Part shown: positions 4,349 to 42,894 of the stretch, in pieces
How the letters are laid out: every line of letters begins with the position of its first letter
Numbering within the stretch: the stretch's first letter is position 1
DNA from: Gordonia effusa NBRC 100432
Lineage (GTDB): Bacteria; Actinomycetota; Actinomycetes; Mycobacteriales; Mycobacteriaceae
Direction: 5' to 3'
Length of the DNA: 64,000 nucleotides
Assembly (NCBI RefSeq): GCF_000241305.1
Contig: NZ_BAEH01000132.1
Location: 1 to 64,000 of the forward strand
Notes under the pieces: model-generated
Told to the model about the DNA's origin: nothing
Seen by the model: the letters and a program-made list of their open reading frames with translations, nothing else
The model's database searches: none
Made by a program: the position numbers and the translations under genes

Positions 4349-5383
4349 CTAGCCGAACAATTGCCGGTAGTCCGCGTAGCTCTCTGGTGGCACCGTCTTC
4401 AGGTCGGCCAGCGCCTCCGCAAAATCTACGCGTGCGATATTCGTCCCGTGCAGCGCGACCATCTGGCCCCAGCCACCGTCGGCGATCAGGTCGGTGACGG
4501 CCATGCCCAGCCGAGTCGCCAGCACCCGATCGAATGCCGACGGCGCACCGCCACGTTGAATATGTCCCAAAACTGTTGAGCGCGTTTCGATTCCAGTGTG
4601 CTCCTCGATCAACGGCGCCAGTACTTCGCCGATGCCGCCGAGTCGGGGACGATTAAATCCGTCGAGTCCCTTGGTGGAGTGCGCCTCGTCCATATCCGGA
4701 AACTTGAAACCCTCGGCGACGACGACCATCGGTGCTCGACCACGGTGCACGACGCTGCGGACCCACTCGGAGATCTGTTCGATGGTCTCCGGCTGTTCAG
4801 GAATCAGGATCGCGTGCGCACCACCGGCAATACCGGAGAACAGTGCGATCCACCCCGCGTGCCGGCCCATGACCTCAAGCACCATGCAGCGCTTGTGGGA
4901 ATTGCCTGTGGTGCGCAGACGGTCGATCGCCTCAGTGGCTATCTCAACGGCAGTGGAGAAGCCGAAGGTGTAATCGGTTGCGGCGAGGTCGTTGTCGATC
5001 GTCTTAGGCACCCCGACGATATTCACGCCGTCCTCGAACAGCCTCTTCGACGCGCTCGCGGTACCTTCACCGCCGATAGCGATTATTCCGTCGATACCCA
5101 GCTGCTTCATCCGCTTCTTGATGTTCTCCGCGCCGCCGTCGGGCTCGCGGTACGGACCGACGCGGCTAGTCCTTATTATCGTGCCGCCCTGGCTGGACAG
5201 GCCACGCACCGAACGGCGGTCGAGCGTGATGGCGTTGCCTTCGATGAGGCCCTTCCACCCGTCGAGGAACCCGACGAACTCCTGGCCGTGCACGGTCTCG
5301 CCTTTGAGGACCGCACCCCGAATCACCGCGTTGAGCCCTGGACAGTCACCGCCGGACGTGAGGATGCCGAGCCGCTTTGCCAT
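4349..5383 (-). CDS. pfkA: 6-phosphofructokinase
   Basis: 344 residues, normal for actinobacterial PfkA (Rv3010c position). It phosphorylates fructose 6-phosphate in glycolysis. Visible motifs are the phosphate-binding TSGGDCPGLNAVIRG at the N-terminus, the catalytic-loop PKTIDNDLAATDYTFG with TIDND, the MGRHAGWIA substrate segment and GHIQRGGAPSAFDR near the C-terminus. The nucleotide loop reads GGEGT rather than GGDGT; the Gly after the acidic residue suggests ATP rather than pyrophosphate as donor, which is inference. The start has a good ribosome site (GAAAGGTGA). Monocistronic between convergent pspC and the upstream response regulator. Confidence 0.96.
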   Translation of the reverse strand: MAKRLGILTSGGDCPGLNAVIRGAVLKGETVHGQEFVGFLDGWKGLIEGNAITLDRRSVRGLSSQGGTIIRTSRVGPYREPDGGAENIKKRMKQLGIDGIIAIGGEGTASASKRLFEDGVNIVGVPKTIDNDLAATDYTFGFSTAVEIATEAIDRLRTTGNSHKRCMVLEVMGRHAGWIALFSGIAGGAHAILIPEQPETIEQISEWVRSVVHRGRAPMVVVAEGFKFPDMDEAHSTKGLDGFNRPRLGGIGEVLAPLIEEHTGIETRSTVLGHIQRGGAPSAFDRVLATRLGMAVTDLIADGGWGQMVALHGTNIARVDFAEALADLKTVPPESYADYRQLFG

Positions 5384-5499
5384 ATGTCACCTTTCGGGCC
5401 TGAGAGTTCGACGGACACCGCCTCAAATGTAGTGTGCTGACGACGCTCCCGCGCGCTGTCTGGATCAGCGCCCGCTGGCTCTACAGGATCAACCGAACA

Positions 5500-37372: not shown

Positions 37373-38038
37373 ATGCGCAGCAATATCTTTGACCAGGCCA
37401 ACCAAGCGGTCGCCACCCAGGAACGATGGAGCCTGCAATCCACCAAGATGCTCCGGGTCGGCTTCGGCCCCGACGTCCTCGCCGCCAAAGGCGCGATGGT
37501 CGCCTACCAGGGCCAGTTCCAGTTCAAACATGAGGGAGCCGGCAGCGTCGGCAACTTCCTCAAACGCGCGGTGACCAATGAGGGCGGTCAGATGATGCGC
37601 GTTTCGGGTCAGGGTGAGGTCTACTTCGCACAGAACAACCACAATGTCTTCACCCTGCAGCTCGAAGGCGACGCCATAACCATCAATACCTCGAGCCTGC
37701 TGGCCTTCGACGCCGAGCTTCAGTGGAAGATCACCACGATCGGCAACGCTGGCATGCTGGCTGGCGGTCTGTTCAACCTCGAGGTGGCCGGTCATGGCAC
37801 CGCGGGCATCACCTGCCATGGCACGCCCCTCGTGCTGGACTGCTCACAACAGCCGACCTTCGTCGACCCGCAGGCCGCGGTGTGCTGGTCGGCCGGTTTG
37901 CAGCCGACCATAAAGAACGATCTGAAGCTCGGGGCACTCATCGGCCGCGGCTCAGGTGAAGCGTTCCAACTCGCCTTCCACGGCCCCGGATTCGTTGTGG
38001 TTCAGCCGAGCGAAGGCCGCAGCGTCCTGCCCGGCTGA
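37373..38038 (+). CDS. AIM24-family protein
   Basis: 221 residues. AIM24 (PF01987) proteins are beta-rich trimeric TRAP-like folds of uncertain role. Landmarks: MLRVGFGPDVLAAKGAMVAYQGQFQF, EVYFAQNNHNVFTLQLEGDAITINTSSLLAFD, GLFNLEVAGHGTAGITCHGTPLVL and the glycine-rich C-terminus. AGGAG stands 6 nt before the ATG. Soluble, no signal peptide. Single gene between palindrome C and a short hairpin at 38065. AIM24 genes are widespread; its place in the MGLP region seems accessory. Confidence 0.9.
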   Translation: MRSNIFDQANQAVATQERWSLQSTKMLRVGFGPDVLAAKGAMVAYQGQFQFKHEGAGSVGNFLKRAVTNEGGQMMRVSGQGEVYFAQNNHNVFTLQLEGDAITINTSSLLAFDAELQWKITTIGNAGMLAGGLFNLEVAGHGTAGITCHGTPLVLDCSQQPTFVDPQAAVCWSAGLQPTIKNDLKLGALIGRGSGEAFQLAFHGPGFVVVQPSEGRSVLPG

Positions 38039-39031
38039 TCTTCGAGCAACGAACCACCCGACCGTGCACGCCCCCGTGCAGTGATACATCAGTGTCCTGG
38101 ATTTACAGACTGGAGAAATATCGACGTAGCTGCGCTGCGCCTAAAAAGGGACCACCTAAAGCACGCACAAGCTACTATTGGGCTGAGCAAGCTACTTTAT
38201 TGGCAATCAACGTTGTCTCTTTGTCTATGATCCCCACCGTGGGGGTTGGGTATATTCCAATAAGAACCCAAAATTGCGGAGTTTCCGTCTCATTGCGGGG
38301 CCAAGACGACCGTTGTCGCGGGGCCAAGCGAGAATATGGGCAGACTCACGAGCTGCGCACTGACCGATCAGTCCGCCAACGTCGACATTCATAACAACGG
38401 CGCTTCGTTCCGCCGACGCGGGAAGTAAACGACGCCGAATCGCGTCCCAACGAGATGACACATTCGGTCACCTCGAAAGCGTGACGCACCCCGGGTTGTC
38501 GCAGACATATTCGAAGACGCGGCTCGCGAATTCGGCGGGTTTGGCACAGCGCTTAACACCTCCGACAGGGCAGTGGAAGATGATTCTCGAGACCAACGAC
38601 GACGAGCACCATCTGATGTTCGACATCAATACCTAGGCCCCTACTTCTCATTTAAAGAAGCGGTCCACCATCGGGAGGAAATTGGTAAAGTTGTTACCGT
38701 TGTTACCCGATATTGGTCGCATCCTCTGATCCGATACTCGATTTAAGCTGGCGGGAATTCGCCACCGGCGCGTTACACCCACTCACCGGCTGATGCACTC
38801 GCGATTTACGGGATCTCGGCCGACGCATTGCCTACCGCGTATCCGGTGGACCGTCGCGCAATCAGCGCGTGCCACTAGCAACCCTAAGACTGGCACCCCG
38901 CCCGCGCCTGCCCGACGACGGTGCACCCACTCATTAAGTGGGTGCACCGTTCGTATCAGGTCTCGCCAGATCGACCCGTCGATTGGTCGGTCAGTTCACT
39001 GACCACTTCAGCGTTGTCGGGCGAACGGCAC
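38039..39031. other. Lower-GC interval without a convincing gene
   Basis: About 1 kb, visibly richer in A/T than its surroundings, with frequent stops in all frames. It holds a short hairpin TGCACG-CCCC-CGTGCA (38065-38080, likely terminator of the AIM24 gene), a TGATACATCAGT element (38081-38092) and a 13-bp hairpin at 38919-38949. One 51-codon frame (38481-38636, GTG to TAG, ending with an acidic HHLMFDINT tail) is too weak to call a gene. A 78-codon frame at 38225-38461 on the minus strand has no recognisable features. Probably degraded sequence. Confidence 0.5.
38919..38949 (-). terminator. 13-bp hairpin downstream of the repeat lipoprotein gene
   Basis: CGGTGCACCCACT, loop CATTA, AGTGGGTGCACCG: perfect stem, 82 nt beyond the minus-strand lipoprotein stop. 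Confidence 0.6.
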
Positions 39032-40048
39032 TCAGTTGGGCCCGTCATCGTCGGTGGTCGGATCCGACTGGTCTCCGGTGTCATCGCTATTGTCCGTTGT
39101 CGGCGGCGCTCCCTGTGATTCATCGGCCGTGTAACTGCCTGCCGGGCACGCCGGGTCTTGATTCGTCGCGCAGTAGTCCTGACTCAAGTTGTTGCCCGTT
39201 GAGCCGTCAGCTCCGCTCGGTCCACCGTTCGCGGGCTGACCATCCGCATCCCAAACACCCGGCGTGCCGCCAGCCCCGTGATTCGGATTCGTACAGACCG
39301 TGCCCTCGCACTTCACAAAGCCCGACCCACCTTTCGGGTCTTTGACCGCGTTAGGTGCGACGAAACTGCCTGCCGGGCAGGCCGGATTCTGGTTTTTCGC
39401 GCAGTATTCGCGAGTGAGATTGCTGCCCGTTGACCCGTCTGCTCCAGCTGGCCCACCATTGACAGGCTTGCCATCGGCATCCCAACTACCCCGGTCGCCA
39501 CCGGCGCCGTGATTAGGGTTAGTGCAGATCGTGCCCTCGCATTTGACATAGCCTGGCCCACCTTTGGGATCTTTGATCGCGTTCGCCGCGACGTAGCTAC
39601 CCTTTGGACAGCCCGGATCCTGATTCTTCGCGCAGTACTCCTGTGTCAAATTGTTGTTAGTTGAGCCATCAGCGCCAACCGGCCCACCATTTACCGGCTT
39701 TCCACTGTCATCCCACCCACCGTGCTTGGAGTGATATTTGACGTGTGGACCGACAAACGAGCCGGCAGGACAGGCTGGATCTTGATTGGCCGAGCAATAG
39801 TCGCGTGTCAGGTTATTACCAGTAGAGCCATCGGCTCCGACAGGCCCACCGTTGATCGGATTGCCGCTCGTGTCCCAACCTTTCACCTTGGGATCGGGCT
39901 TGCTTGGATCGCCGTACACCACCACTCGCGCCTTCTTGACGGACGACGACTCAGATGCCACATCGGTGTCATTGTCGGACGATCCGCAGCCCGCAAGGAA
40001 TAGCGCCCCGCAACATAGCGCAGCCAACAGGGTAAGAAGCCTTTTCAT
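39032..40048 (-). CDS. Lipoprotein with four 43-residue cysteine-containing repeats
   Basis: 338 residues, family not recognised. Signal MKRLLTLLAALCCGALFLAGC has a perfect LAGC lipobox (Cys21). Four ungapped 43-residue repeats follow at 57-99, 111-153, 188-230 and 265-307. Each runs W-D-x2-G-x-P-x-NGGP-x-GADGST, then NNL/SNL-x3-YC, then NQDP-x-CP-x-GS. Repeats 2-3 and 3-4 are joined by near-identical 34-residue linkers with KDPKGG, VKCEGT and CTNPNHGAGG; repeat 1-2 has an 11-residue linker instead. Twelve mature cysteines besides Cys21, two per repeat and linker, suggest disulfides. The tail is Asp/Thr-rich. Function unknown; a surface binding or structural role is inference. AGGAA ribosome site. 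Confidence 0.88.
   Translation of the reverse strand: MKRLLTLLAALCCGALFLAGCGSSDNDTDVASESSSVKKARVVVYGDPSKPDPKVKGWDTSGNPINGGPVGADGSTGNNLTRDYCSANQDPACPAGSFVGPHVKYHSKHGGWDDSGKPVNGGPVGADGSTNNNLTQEYCAKNQDPGCPKGSYVAANAIKDPKGGPGYVKCEGTICTNPNHGAGGDRGSWDADGKPVNGGPAGADGSTGSNLTREYCAKNQNPACPAGSFVAPNAVKDPKGGSGFVKCEGTVCTNPNHGAGGTPGVWDADGQPANGGPSGADGSTGNNLSQDYCATNQDPACPAGSYTADESQGAPPTTDNSDDTGDQSDPTTDDDGPN
39128..39880 (-). repeat. Four tandem coding repeats with 34-residue linkers
   Basis: DNA of the repeats: 39752-39880, 39590-39718, 39359-39487 and 39128-39256 (129 bp each, no indels). Linkers at 39488-39589 and 39257-39358 (102 bp each) make a 231-bp unit; the first linker is cut to 33 bp. The layout implies stepwise duplication of a 77-residue unit. 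Confidence 0.85.
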
Positions 40049-40715
40049 GAGAATTCCTAGTCTCTAAATTTTCATCAGTGACACTACCAATTAGATCAGA
40101 CAAAACGCTCAAATATTGCGAAACGGGCACGCTCTTCCAGAGTCCGAGATACGTCGGATTCATCCAATTGGTAGCGGCGGCCTTCGACTTCCCATTCGAG
40201 CATAGCCAGCGGGACATATGTCCAAATGCCGCTTTCGCCAAGTGGTCACAGAAGACCGTGGTAGTGCCACCTATTGGGGTTAACCAATCGCACGATCACG
40301 AATACCGGATGGCCGATTTGACATATGTCAACCATTTTCAGCAGTCGAGTATTTGCGAATTGCACTCGTCGCGCACAGATTAATGACGCCCGCAAAATCG
40401 AGCCAGCAGTGTGGCACTAATCAATTACCGCTCGGGCGAAAAAGGCGCTCGTTTGACGAAGTCTGTGCATCAACACCCGCCGCGCAAAATGGACGCGCGT
40501 GCCGAGCCGATTTCACCACGTTGTTCACATATCAAAATAGTCAGCTCGAAGGGTGAGGTAGCTCTGCTCCGCGCGCGACACGAGCAGGAACGGACCGTTA
40601 GCCGTCGTCTGCGTCAAGGAACTTATGAATCACCCTCCTCCGGTCGCCAGCCTCGTGAAATACTATACTGACACATCAGTCCTATCGATGCATCCATTAT
40701 TACCGGAAGGAAACC
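40049..40715. other. Lower-GC intergenic interval with promoters only
   Basis: About 670 bp. On the minus strand a TTGAGC / TAGTGT pair could drive the lipoprotein. On the plus strand GGAAGGAA stands before the SDR ATG, and ACTGA-CACA-TCAGT (40667-40680) is a candidate operator near a TATACT box (40664-40669). Two frames of 90-100 codons here have no recognisable features and unusual composition; I do not call them. Confidence 0.5.
40667..40680. promoter_or_regulatory. Candidate operator ACTGA-CACA-TCAGT upstream of SDR
   Basis: Five-bp inverted arms with a 4-nt centre, overlapping a TATACT -10-like box 36 nt before the SDR start. The size and symmetry suit a TetR-family repressor, but no such gene is in the window. 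Confidence 0.3.
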
Positions 40716-41492
40716 ATGTCTAAGAGCATCTTGATCACCGGAGCGAGCTCCGGATTTGGCCGAGGCACCGCGCTTGAACTCGCACGACTCGGACACAAGG
40801 TGGTGGCTACCGCCGAGACCTGGCCACAGGTGCGAAGTCTTCGCGCCGATGCCGCAGCAGCGGGAGTTGAGGTCGAGGTCATAAAGCTGAACCTCCTCGA
40901 CGAGATCGACATCGCGCACGCCGCGACGTATGAGCCCGACGTCCTGGTTCTGAACGCCGGAGTCATGGAGGGAGGCTCGATGGTGGACATCCCACTAAGG
41001 CGTGTACGGGAATCGTTCGAGATCAATGTGTTCGGTCATCTGGAGCTAGCGCAGGCGATCGTCCCCAAGATGGTGGAGAAGAAGTCCGGAAAAGTTGTCT
41101 GGACCTCATCCATGGGCGGGATACTGGTAGTTCCGTTCCTCGGAGCCTATTGCGCTACCAAGCACGCCATCGAAGCAATCGCTGGATCGATGAAGGCAGA
41201 ACTAAGCCCCCACGGCATTCAGGTGGCAACCGTGAATCCCGGGGTCTTCGGCACCGGGTTTAACGACACCGGGGCCGAGAGCTACGTCCAGTGGTACGAC
41301 GCCGATAAGGCGGTTGTGCCAATGCCTGATTTCGGCGACAGCCTCGCGGACCAGGCCGACCCGCAGGAAATGATCGATGCGATGGTCGAGATCATTCCGG
41401 CGGATGAGCACCTCTACCGAACCATGCGCCCTCTCGCGACCATCGACGCCGCAAAACAGTGGCAGGACACGGAGTGGACGCAGAATGCCTGA
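40716..41492 (+). CDS. Short-chain dehydrogenase/reductase
   Basis: 258 residues. Cofactor loop TGASSGFGRGTALEL, NAG in VLNAGVMEGG, catalytic TSSMGG Ser and the Tyr-x3-Lys of GAYCATKHAIEAIAGS. Cytosolic NAD(P)-dependent oxidoreductase; substrate unknown. GGAAGGAA ribosome site 5 nt before the ATG. The stop lies inside the next gene (8-nt overlap), so it is coupled to the HbpS/GlcG-like gene. Accessory to the MGLP locus. Confidence 0.92.
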   Translation: MSKSILITGASSGFGRGTALELARLGHKVVATAETWPQVRSLRADAAAAGVEVEVIKLNLLDEIDIAHAATYEPDVLVLNAGVMEGGSMVDIPLRRVRESFEINVFGHLELAQAIVPKMVEKKSGKVVWTSSMGGILVVPFLGAYCATKHAIEAIAGSMKAELSPHGIQVATVNPGVFGTGFNDTGAESYVQWYDADKAVVPMPDFGDSLADQADPQEMIDAMVEIIPADEHLYRTMRPLATIDAAKQWQDTEWTQNA

Positions 41493-41886
41493 AATCACCC
41501 TCGATCACGCCGAGAGCCTAATCGCTCGCGGTATCGCCGCGGCCCGGGCCGACGGGCTCAACGCTGTGTTCGCGGTATTCGACACCGGAGCCAATCTGGT
41601 CGCCTTCGCCCGGATGGATGGCGCGTGGCTGGCCTCGAACGAGTTGGCACAGGCGAAAGCGCGCACCGCGGTTATGTTCCAGGCTCCGACCGAGGCGCTC
41701 GCATCGCCGATCGAGATCGGCTCTCCAGCACCGCATTTCGATCACATCCACTCCCCCGGACTCCTCCTGATGGGTGGCGGCGTGCCACTATTCGACAAAG
41801 ACGGTGCGCTCATCGGAGGCCTGGGTGCATCAGGTGGCACGCCTGAACAGGACGCGGCACTCGCTCGTACCTGTGTCGCGGCCTGA
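41485..41886 (+). CDS. GlcG/HbpS-like protein
   Basis: 133 residues. Pattern LDHAESLIARGIAAARADGLNAVFAVFDTGANLVAFARMDGAW, then SNELAQAKARTAVMFQAPTEAL and GGGVPLFDKDGALIGGLGASGGTPEQDAALARTCVAA, the GlcG/HbpS fold. Members bind haem or act beside oxidoreductases; here it overlaps an SDR gene by 8 nt, so a shared pathway is likely. No export signal. Confidence 0.9.
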   Translation: MPEITLDHAESLIARGIAAARADGLNAVFAVFDTGANLVAFARMDGAWLASNELAQAKARTAVMFQAPTEALASPIEIGSPAPHFDHIHSPGLLLMGGGVPLFDKDGALIGGLGASGGTPEQDAALARTCVAA

Positions 41887-41968
41887 GTTACGAACTGGCG
41901 GTCAGCTCTTCGGAGAGCACCCCCGACGTCGCCGTCTTATCTGACTGAACGGCGTTGGAAAGTCGGTC

Positions 41969-42721
41969 TCACCGCTCCTCGGCTTCCGCAGCGGCCTTCT
42001 TACGTTCGATGTCGGCCAGCGCGCGCTCTAGTTCCGCGCGCTGGGCGGCATTCGCATGCCAATCGTCGAGCCGATTCTTCACGACGCGGGCCGGGGCGCC
42101 GACCGCAATCGAATAGTCCGGGATGACGCCTTTCACAACGGCATGGGAGCCGAGGACGCAACCGCGGCCGACGGTCGTATTACGCAACACCGACACCTTC
42201 GCCGCAACCCAGGTATCGGCGCCAATCCGCACCGGCCCCTTGACGATCCCCTGGTCTTTGATAGGCATCTCGATATTGTCCATCTTGTGGTCGAAGTCGC
42301 AGATGTAGCACCAGTCGGCGACCAGTGTCGACGCACCGATTTCCAGATCGAGATAGGAGTTGACGACGTTGTTCGCGCCGAAGACCACCTTGTCGCCGAT
42401 ACGCATCGAACCCTCGTGTGCGCGTAGCGAATTGCCATCGCCGATATGCACCCATCGACCGATCTCCATCCGCGCCAACTCGGGCGTCGCATGGATCTCG
42501 ACGTTGCGTCCTAGAAAGACCATGCCGCGCAGCACGATATGCGGATTGGCCGCCCGGAAGCGGAAGAGCCGGTAGTAACGCACCAGGTACCAGGGCGTGT
42601 ACGCACGATTGGAAAGCACCCAGCGCAGTGAGTCGCGAGTCAGGAAACGCGCCTGCATCGGGTCACGTCGGCGGCCCGCCCGCCAGCGCGACTTATAGGA
42701 CGCGTTCCACATCGTCGTCAT
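41969..42721 (-). CDS. Hexapeptide-repeat acyltransferase (Rv3034c-like)
   Basis: 250 residues. Left-handed beta-helix repeats run from about 85 to 205 (VFLGRNVEIHATPELARMEIGRWVHIGDGNSL; VVFGANNVVNSYLDLEIG; VRIGADTWVAAKVSVLRNTTVGRGCVLGSHAVVKG), typical of O-acetyl/succinyltransferases. Rv3034c sits in the MGLP cluster, so acylation of that polysaccharide is plausible. ATG 42721 chosen with GGGAG 8 nt upstream. C-terminal helix is highly charged. Confidence 0.9.
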   Translation of the reverse strand: MTTMWNASYKSRWRAGRRRDPMQARFLTRDSLRWVLSNRAYTPWYLVRYYRLFRFRAANPHIVLRGMVFLGRNVEIHATPELARMEIGRWVHIGDGNSLRAHEGSMRIGDKVVFGANNVVNSYLDLEIGASTLVADWCYICDFDHKMDNIEMPIKDQGIVKGPVRIGADTWVAAKVSVLRNTTVGRGCVLGSHAVVKGVIPDYSIAVGAPARVVKNRLDDWHANAAQRAELERALADIERKKAAAEAEER

Positions 42722-42894
42722 CGATTGATCTCCCATCGCACTACGCAATCCGCATCGGATAGCCATGCGATTTTATCGCCCCACATCGGCGCGCCGAATG
42801 GGCGTACCCGTGGTCGGTCGGCGGTGCGCGGGCACACGATAGGCTCACATGCGTTGATGCCAGACCAACGGCGTCGAGTCAGCGAGGAGAACAG

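Follow-up and report, generated by a model that had tools for sequence, protein, structure and literature searches.

A Gordonia effusa lipoprotein with repeated cysteine-pair modules that are new to the curated family libraries searched

The gene at 39032..40048 on the reverse strand of the window (the whole 64-kb stretch of DNA analysed) starts with ATG and encodes a 338-residue lipoprotein which, as read from its sequence, is built from repeats of two kinds of small module, the 43-residue A (C-x7-C) and a B of about 34 residues (C-x4-C), in the order A-A-B-A-B-A followed by an acidic tail. Both modules are new to the curated libraries searched (Pfam, NCBIfam and PHROGs), in which they matched none of the families. 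The protein is very probably a modular lipoprotein with paired cysteines. As to its role, we tentatively propose an accessory, lipid-anchored, disulfide-pinned and multivalent protein of the envelope, perhaps with a polysaccharide ligand.

The N-terminus, MKRLLTLLAALCCGALFLAGC, combines positive residues, a hydrophobic stretch and a lipobox ending L-A-G-C21, features of bacterial lipoproteins recognised here by eye. This signal peptide (residues 1-21, 39986..40048; all coordinates of protein parts are on the reverse strand) bears out the assignment of the initial annotation as a lipoprotein, with Cys21 predicted to be lipidated. The mature protein continues with an N-terminal stretch that is Ser-rich initially (residues 22-57, 39878..39985). 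By alignment of the units, the first A module spans residues 58-100 (39749..39877, C85-x7-C93) and is followed by an 11-residue linker (39716..39748), defined by length comparison across relatives, and by the second A module (residues 112-154, 39587..39715, C139-x7-C147). Then come the first B module (residues 155-188, 39485..39586, C170-x4-C175; CEGTICTNPNHGAG), the third A module (residues 189-231, 39356..39484, C216-x7-C224), the second B module (residues 232-265, 39254..39355, C247-x4-C252; CEGTVCTNPNHGAG), a fourth A module that is an extra unit at the C-terminal end (residues 266-308, 39125..39253, C293-x7-C301) and an Asp-rich tail (residues 309-338, 39035..39124). B was delimited by unit comparison, and A module 2 and B module 1 were also modelled.

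The four ungapped 43-residue repeats described earlier are indeed present, beginning at W58, W112, W189 and W266 with spacings of 54, 77 and 77 residues. The best ungapped 43-residue self-match is 35/43, against at most 14/43 in 300 residue shuffles. At the DNA level 136 nt recur in four copies (spacings 231, 231 and 162), and TRF reports a period of 231 with 2.5 copies and 75% matches. The count of twelve cysteines in the mature part besides Cys21 also stands (positions 85, 93, 139, 147, 170, 175, 216, 224, 247, 252, 293 and 301).

Comparison of 76 proteins, 75 from 74 loci of a named genome collection plus the G. effusa protein, changes the reading of the segments between the A units. A, or a shortened A, occurs in 38 of the 76, and B without A in 38; the presence of B in all 76 is a consequence of the search patterns (A/B boundary and B core). 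The 34-residue segments had first been taken for linkers. Since B is found without A in half of the proteins, it is better regarded as an independent module. B-only lipoproteins, with one to four B copies often about 36 residues apart, occur in Mycolicibacterium, Rhodococcus, Nocardia and Tsukamurella. Nor is the first linker shortened to 11 residues, as had been supposed: among 19 proteins examined, 14 (G. effusa included) have the A-A layout and five do not, and the distance from GSY/F to the following Trp is 13 residues (11 past the 43-residue unit) in 14/14, a common trait of that layout. Four of the 14 (L026, L027, L033 and L036) have a shortened first A. A fourth A belongs to the G. effusa protein alone and is found in none of the other 75. 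Within A-B units the spacing C-x7-C-x22-C-x4-C is kept in 44 of 46; of the remaining two, one carries an additional Cys and the other has 23 residues where the rest have 22.

Module order among the relatives includes A-A-B-A-B-A, A-A-B-A-B, A-B-B-B-B and B-B-B, among others, and the N-terminal parts and tails vary as well. Such free variation in repeat number and order would suit a plain spacer, whose modules bind nothing themselves and whose disulfides serve only to make a rigid stalk holding the acidic tail clear of the membrane. The composition of the mature protein (Gly 16.7%, Asp 10.4%, Pro 9.8%, Asn 8.5%), which offers little for a hydrophobic core, points the same way. This is the strongest rival to the role proposed here and we consider it possible. 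Against it, B is near-identical across genera at open or partly open positions (T after the second Cys in 108/108, H of CTNPNH in 97/108, G of GAG in 101/108), a degree of conservation apparently beyond what a spacer would require. These figures leave aside the letters that the B regular expression fixes (both Cys, G2, P8 and G11); that for A fixes W1, G5, G10-P12, G14, both Cys and P37, so that the conserved Trp is imposed by the collection pattern, and among open or partly open letters Y at position 27 is kept in 39 of 43 A units.

Further recurrent elements in the tails are 'VEGAPC...HYGTEWLC' (C), 'CTTGMG...WVC' (D) and PPEPGQ repeats. A two-cysteine tail module of the form 'VEGAPCEGDG...HYGTEWLC' or 'CTTGMG...WVCQI' was seen in L046, L049-L052, L038, L078, L081, L083 and others; three C/D-bearing proteins scanned (L046, L038 and L078) gave no Pfam match over cut-off. 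Tandem PPEPGQ...GP tails are common to different genera, being found in Gordonia (L007, L010, L023 and L024) and in mycobacteria (L073, L077, L092 and L093). A tree of 43 A units (123 columns) had 5 of 40 inner branches well supported and its bootstrap had not settled, so we make no claim on where repeats were copied.

The pairing of cysteines, already suggested by the initial annotation, holds throughout the family. The number of cysteines after the lipid-bearing Cys is even in all 71 scorable proteins of the 76, which supports disulfides; the lipobox script recognised 71 and the other five (L045, L058, L062, L092 and L093) were left out of the count for want of a lipobox. Consecutive cysteine pairs are mostly four (129 pairs) or seven (67 pairs) residues apart.

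An AlphaFold2 model of a single A-B unit (76 residues, 46-row alignment) has a pLDDT of 78.3 and a pTM of 0.62. Residues 1-50 are predicted at pLDDT 85-90 and the end of B below 50 (block means 85, 77, 53 and 42). The model contains one short helix, residues 25-30, which includes the first Cys, and strand stretches of two residues each at 47-48, 56-57, 59-60 and 63-64, which we read as two predicted hairpins. Foldseek ranked no PDB chain for the model, a weak negative given that the model is very small.

Searches against known families bear out the earlier statement that the protein cannot be placed in a known domain family, as far as Pfam, NCBIfam, PHROGs and PDB sequences are concerned. For the G. 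effusa protein, Pfam gave nothing near cut-off (two matches, E 0.079 and 0.085), NCBIfam gave six matches below cut-off, all in the signal-peptide region, PHROGs gave seven with E-values no better than 0.0098, all but one in the signal-peptide region, and PDB sequences gave no match. Ten relatives were all below cut-off in Pfam (best E 0.0061) and in NCBIfam, where the best was LpqN in the N-terminal region (E 0.0005, 19.5 bits against a cut-off of 250). Neither the G. effusa protein nor the ten relatives had a carbohydrate-binding Pfam family among their matches. Profile searches of the repeat unit had been proposed in the initial annotation; made with the A-B unit, they found no named domain: 46 A-B units matched no Pfam family at E 1, and two A-B unit profiles searched against PDB sequences returned a sole entry, Evasin P1243 (8fk8), at E 7.7 and 6.5. 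A literature search on A/B repeats, judged by titles only, found no paper.

The G. effusa protein belongs to an A/B module family defined by A with C-x7-C and/or B with C-x4-C and CTNPN; the family profile matches it at E 1.4e-42, its own units being part of the profile. In the genus, a match at E 0.01 is found in 14 of 59 Gordonia genomes and is strong in 13, G. effusa included. At least 56 of 401 genomes, in at least 12 of 31 genera, match in a sample of the family in the GTDB sense. Samples of the order (at least 12/397) and phylum (at least 4/396), both counts including G. effusa, gave matches that, among those listed, all fall in the GTDB family. The profile scan of the named genome collection identified 74 loci out of 111 pattern matches; a scan of the named genome contigs with the single G. 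effusa protein confirmed no relative. The loci lie in Gordonia, Mycolicibacterium, Mycobacterium, Mycolicibacillus, Mycobacteroides, Hoyosella, Tsukamurella, Rhodococcus, Nocardia, Jongsikchunia and Speluncibacter, and the genera bearing A/B module proteins have mycolic acids. Another of the loci (L054) is a Nocardia-like member on a contig labelled as an Acidobacteria MAG, which is probably misbinned.

In G. effusa the gene sits within 3,935 bp of extra DNA (38039..41973, about 3.93 kb) that has no counterpart at the corresponding site of G025, the closest Gordonia genome, where the matching flanks are 31 bp apart. The left flank is an AIM24 gene (37373..38038, forward strand) and the right flank a hexapeptide-repeat transferase gene (41969..42766, reverse strand), both assigned by Pfam and genome comparison. 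Among 15 other Gordonia genomes, those with AIM24 at 65% identity or above, the two genes lie within about 115 bp in 13, the exceptions being G036 and G430, where more DNA intervenes. A family member is carried at another site by five of these 13 (G006, G016, G026, G443 and G447). It is from this comparison with other Gordonia genomes that 38039-41973 is called inserted. The AIM24 gene of G447 (G447:C1:101318-101951) matched as two overlapping pieces and is probably split between frames. Also within the extra DNA are a short-chain dehydrogenase gene (40716..41492, forward strand; PF00106, E 6.7e-38) and an HbpS-like gene (41377..41886, forward strand; PF03928, E 2.7e-33). The lower GC noted earlier for these surroundings is confirmed: 38039-41900 has 58.2% GC and the window as a whole 62.9%. 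No tRNA was predicted by ARAGORN anywhere in the window and, among the repeats returned by the repeat scan, no direct repeat falls at the borders of the extra DNA.

This setting raises the possibility of a surface protein on mobile DNA that alters phage or plasmid uptake by surface exclusion or receptor masking. The patchy occurrence in Gordonia (strong matches in 13/59) and the position of the G. effusa copy within extra DNA are in keeping with it, as are the matches in 5 of the 72,556 plasmid records searched. Arguing the other way, 50,697 phage records contained no match and no relative was confirmed in viral contigs; many relatives lie on long chromosomal contigs, and a relative accompanies deacetylases in some Rhodococcus. 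We judge this explanation unlikely. Among plasmid copies, that of M. chelonae pMchErm55 (L019, 4884-5852) and a locus on an M. iranicum contig (L033) agree over the member and the next genes (an AraC-type gene and two more), with equal frame lengths and first letters, so the same plasmid segment is probably present in the two species.

A decaying or non-functional repeat gene is a most improbable explanation. For A units, six hand-chosen pairs from other Gordonia have dN/dS values of 0.03-0.18, cysteine counts are even across the scorable proteins (71/71), and the G. effusa gene keeps an open frame of 338 codons. Decay in relatives, which the initial annotation had raised as a ground for doubt, is thus not general, and it does apply to one plasmid copy: in Gordonia sp. 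JH63 (L018; plasmid pJH63-1, NZ_CP047236.1, about 4950-5400) the relative is in pieces and has no annotated gene, its fragments being flanked by genes for an HNH endonuclease and an IS256 transposase. Two Nocardia members (L045 and L058) apparently lose the reading frame at one or both ends, which seems to be either decay or sequencing error and counts towards the same explanation. A B-module protein of Mycobacteroides franklinii (L092) has an apparent single membrane-spanning stretch and no lipobox. Within the G. effusa protein, silent sites are saturated in three of six A-unit pairs, and dN/dS is 0.07-0.11 in the rest, from which we take the A copies to be old. Pairs between G. effusa and other A units are saturated in four of five cases, and the remaining one has dN/dS 0.07.

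It had also been suggested that DxDG and GADG loops bind metal, which would make this a metal-binding (for example calcium-binding) surface protein. GADG is found in 37 of 43 A units, and NGDG-like turns precede the B cysteines in many B units, as this idea would have it. Conservation does not support binding through DxDG: only 9 of 43 A units have WDxDG, a count that argues against a conserved metal loop of this type, and DxDG itself occurs in two of the four repeats of the G. effusa protein and is missing from the other two. Both B turns of that protein read DPKGG, where the acidic residues are missing. The conserved acidic ligands of a DxDG-type calcium loop are therefore lacking, and no calcium-binding Pfam family appears among the matches of the G. 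effusa protein up to E 10. Metal binding is accordingly considered improbable.

The same-strand neighbours of the relatives within 200 bp (n=50) include no Pfam family more than twice and reveal no general partner. Local patterns are nevertheless seen, few in number and picked after the fact, and those with deacetylase, pks13 and hydrolase neighbours concern envelope sugars or lipids. In R. qingshengii a B-only gene lies between two polysaccharide deacetylase genes in two plasmid records (a third, H4, being left out), and in R. zopfii (L059) a B-only gene is placed likewise. The gaps from deacetylase to B gene to deacetylase are 48 and 14 bp in L164, about 21 and 4 bp in L059, and 62 and 290 bp in L020; a LysR-type gene lies near this arrangement. 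The second deacetylase matches Pfam Polysacc_deac_1 (E about 1e-18 to 1e-19), and the first is annotated, or homologous to one annotated, as such in plasmid records and has no Pfam match at 1e-5. In R. yananensis the second deacetylase gene follows, at one locus (L062), a B gene that is truncated by the contig end, and a homologue of the first lies on the opposite strand about 1.5 kb off at another (L088). A deacetylase homologue is thus found at three of ten Rhodococcus loci of the named collection (L059, L062 and L088) and at none of the other seven. At three Gordonia loci (L022-L024) the lipoprotein gene directly follows pks13 and a carboxyltransferase gene, presumably accD4, and in Nocardia transvalensis (L075) it comes about 1.6 kb after such a pair. 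BD-FAE-like hydrolases account for two of the 50 neighbours, L038 and, by similarity to that of L038, L086, both in Tsukamurella.

Regulatory boxes were sought by sequence pattern in 71 upstream stretches, that of G. effusa included. IdeR, Zur, KstR, PhoP and CRP boxes numbered zero; SigF (1 against 0.45 expected), SigE/H-like (5 against 4.35) and MtrA-like boxes (8 against 12.25) gave no signal, and DosR-like boxes numbered two (L022 and L081) against 0.15 expected from single-base shuffles. The sigma-70 promoter scan found none, and the terminator scan found one, on the other strand, against 1.3 expected. About 80 bp past the stop codon of the lipoprotein gene there is a 14-nt perfect inverted repeat (38918-38950), absent from the terminator scan, which is possibly a terminator lacking a T run.

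We propose that the lipid on Cys21 would anchor the protein in the outer leaflet of the plasma membrane and that the flexible N-terminal stretch would extend it into the periplasm or cell wall. Each A and B module would be pinned by its own disulfide, and several displayed copies of the same modules would allow many weak contacts to sum, the likeliest ligand being a polysaccharide of the wall or outer material. Disulfides and multivalent binding are what we infer. This role draws support from (i) the even cysteine counts in 71/71 proteins and the A-B spacing kept in 44/46 units; (ii) the predicted pLDDT of 85-90 over residues 1-50 of the A-B unit; (iii) dN/dS values of 0.03-0.18, which indicate purifying selection in relatives. 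The weakness of the B half of the A-B model counts against it. Polysaccharide as the ligand is a guess drawn from the gene neighbourhood in some Rhodococcus. The deacetylases that flank the B-only gene in L020, L164 and L059 would support it, and the aromatic residues (Y27 of the A unit and Trp) are reminiscent of sugar-binding sites. Against such a link, the pattern is local (3/10 Rhodococcus loci), and the neighbours of the G. effusa gene say nothing on sugar.

More broadly, and as a doubtful speculation, mycolic-acid bacteria may possess an undescribed kit of tiny cysteine-pair modules, comprising A and B and, in the tails, at least C and D, shuffled and amplified into envelope lipoproteins, also on plasmids and inserted DNA, that would serve as polysaccharide-binding arrays working with wall deacetylases. 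The modules lie outside the curated libraries searched, and within one bacterial family at least 56 of 401 sampled genomes carry them. Naming A and B would allow joint annotation of many 'hypothetical proteins' in Mycolicibacterium, Nocardia, Rhodococcus, Tsukamurella and Gordonia, and the Rhodococcus gene order offers a first testable link to polysaccharide modification.

Surface lipoproteins made from repeated small modules are a known kind. Myxobacterial TraA is a surface receptor with cysteine-rich repeats; the G. effusa protein resembles it in such repeats, by description only, and comes from another lineage. Excalibur is a short bacterial extracellular calcium-binding domain with an NGDG/DGDG-like turn and CE, and in these it resembles the module; however, the turn is degenerate in the G. 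effusa protein, which has no Pfam match to Excalibur up to E 10. Tick Evasin P1243 shares with the A-B unit mainly the letters C-x-G-T-x-C-T-x-P, and we rejected kinship as chance at E 7.7 and 6.5. The eight conserved cysteines of class A evasins form four disulfides (PMC7322545), against four cysteines per A-B unit, and this difference, with the lack of a Pfam match at E 1 for the 46 units, argues for chance; the class A evasin family (PF19429) itself is not matched by the G. effusa protein up to E 10 or by the 46 units up to E 1. The hypothetical proteins WP_046361805.1 (M. chelonae pMchErm55) and WP_244993423.1 (R. qingshengii), for which no function is annotated, differ from the G. effusa protein in module number and order, the R. 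qingshengii protein having B modules only, and share with it the same A and/or B modules, the lipobox and the paired cysteines.
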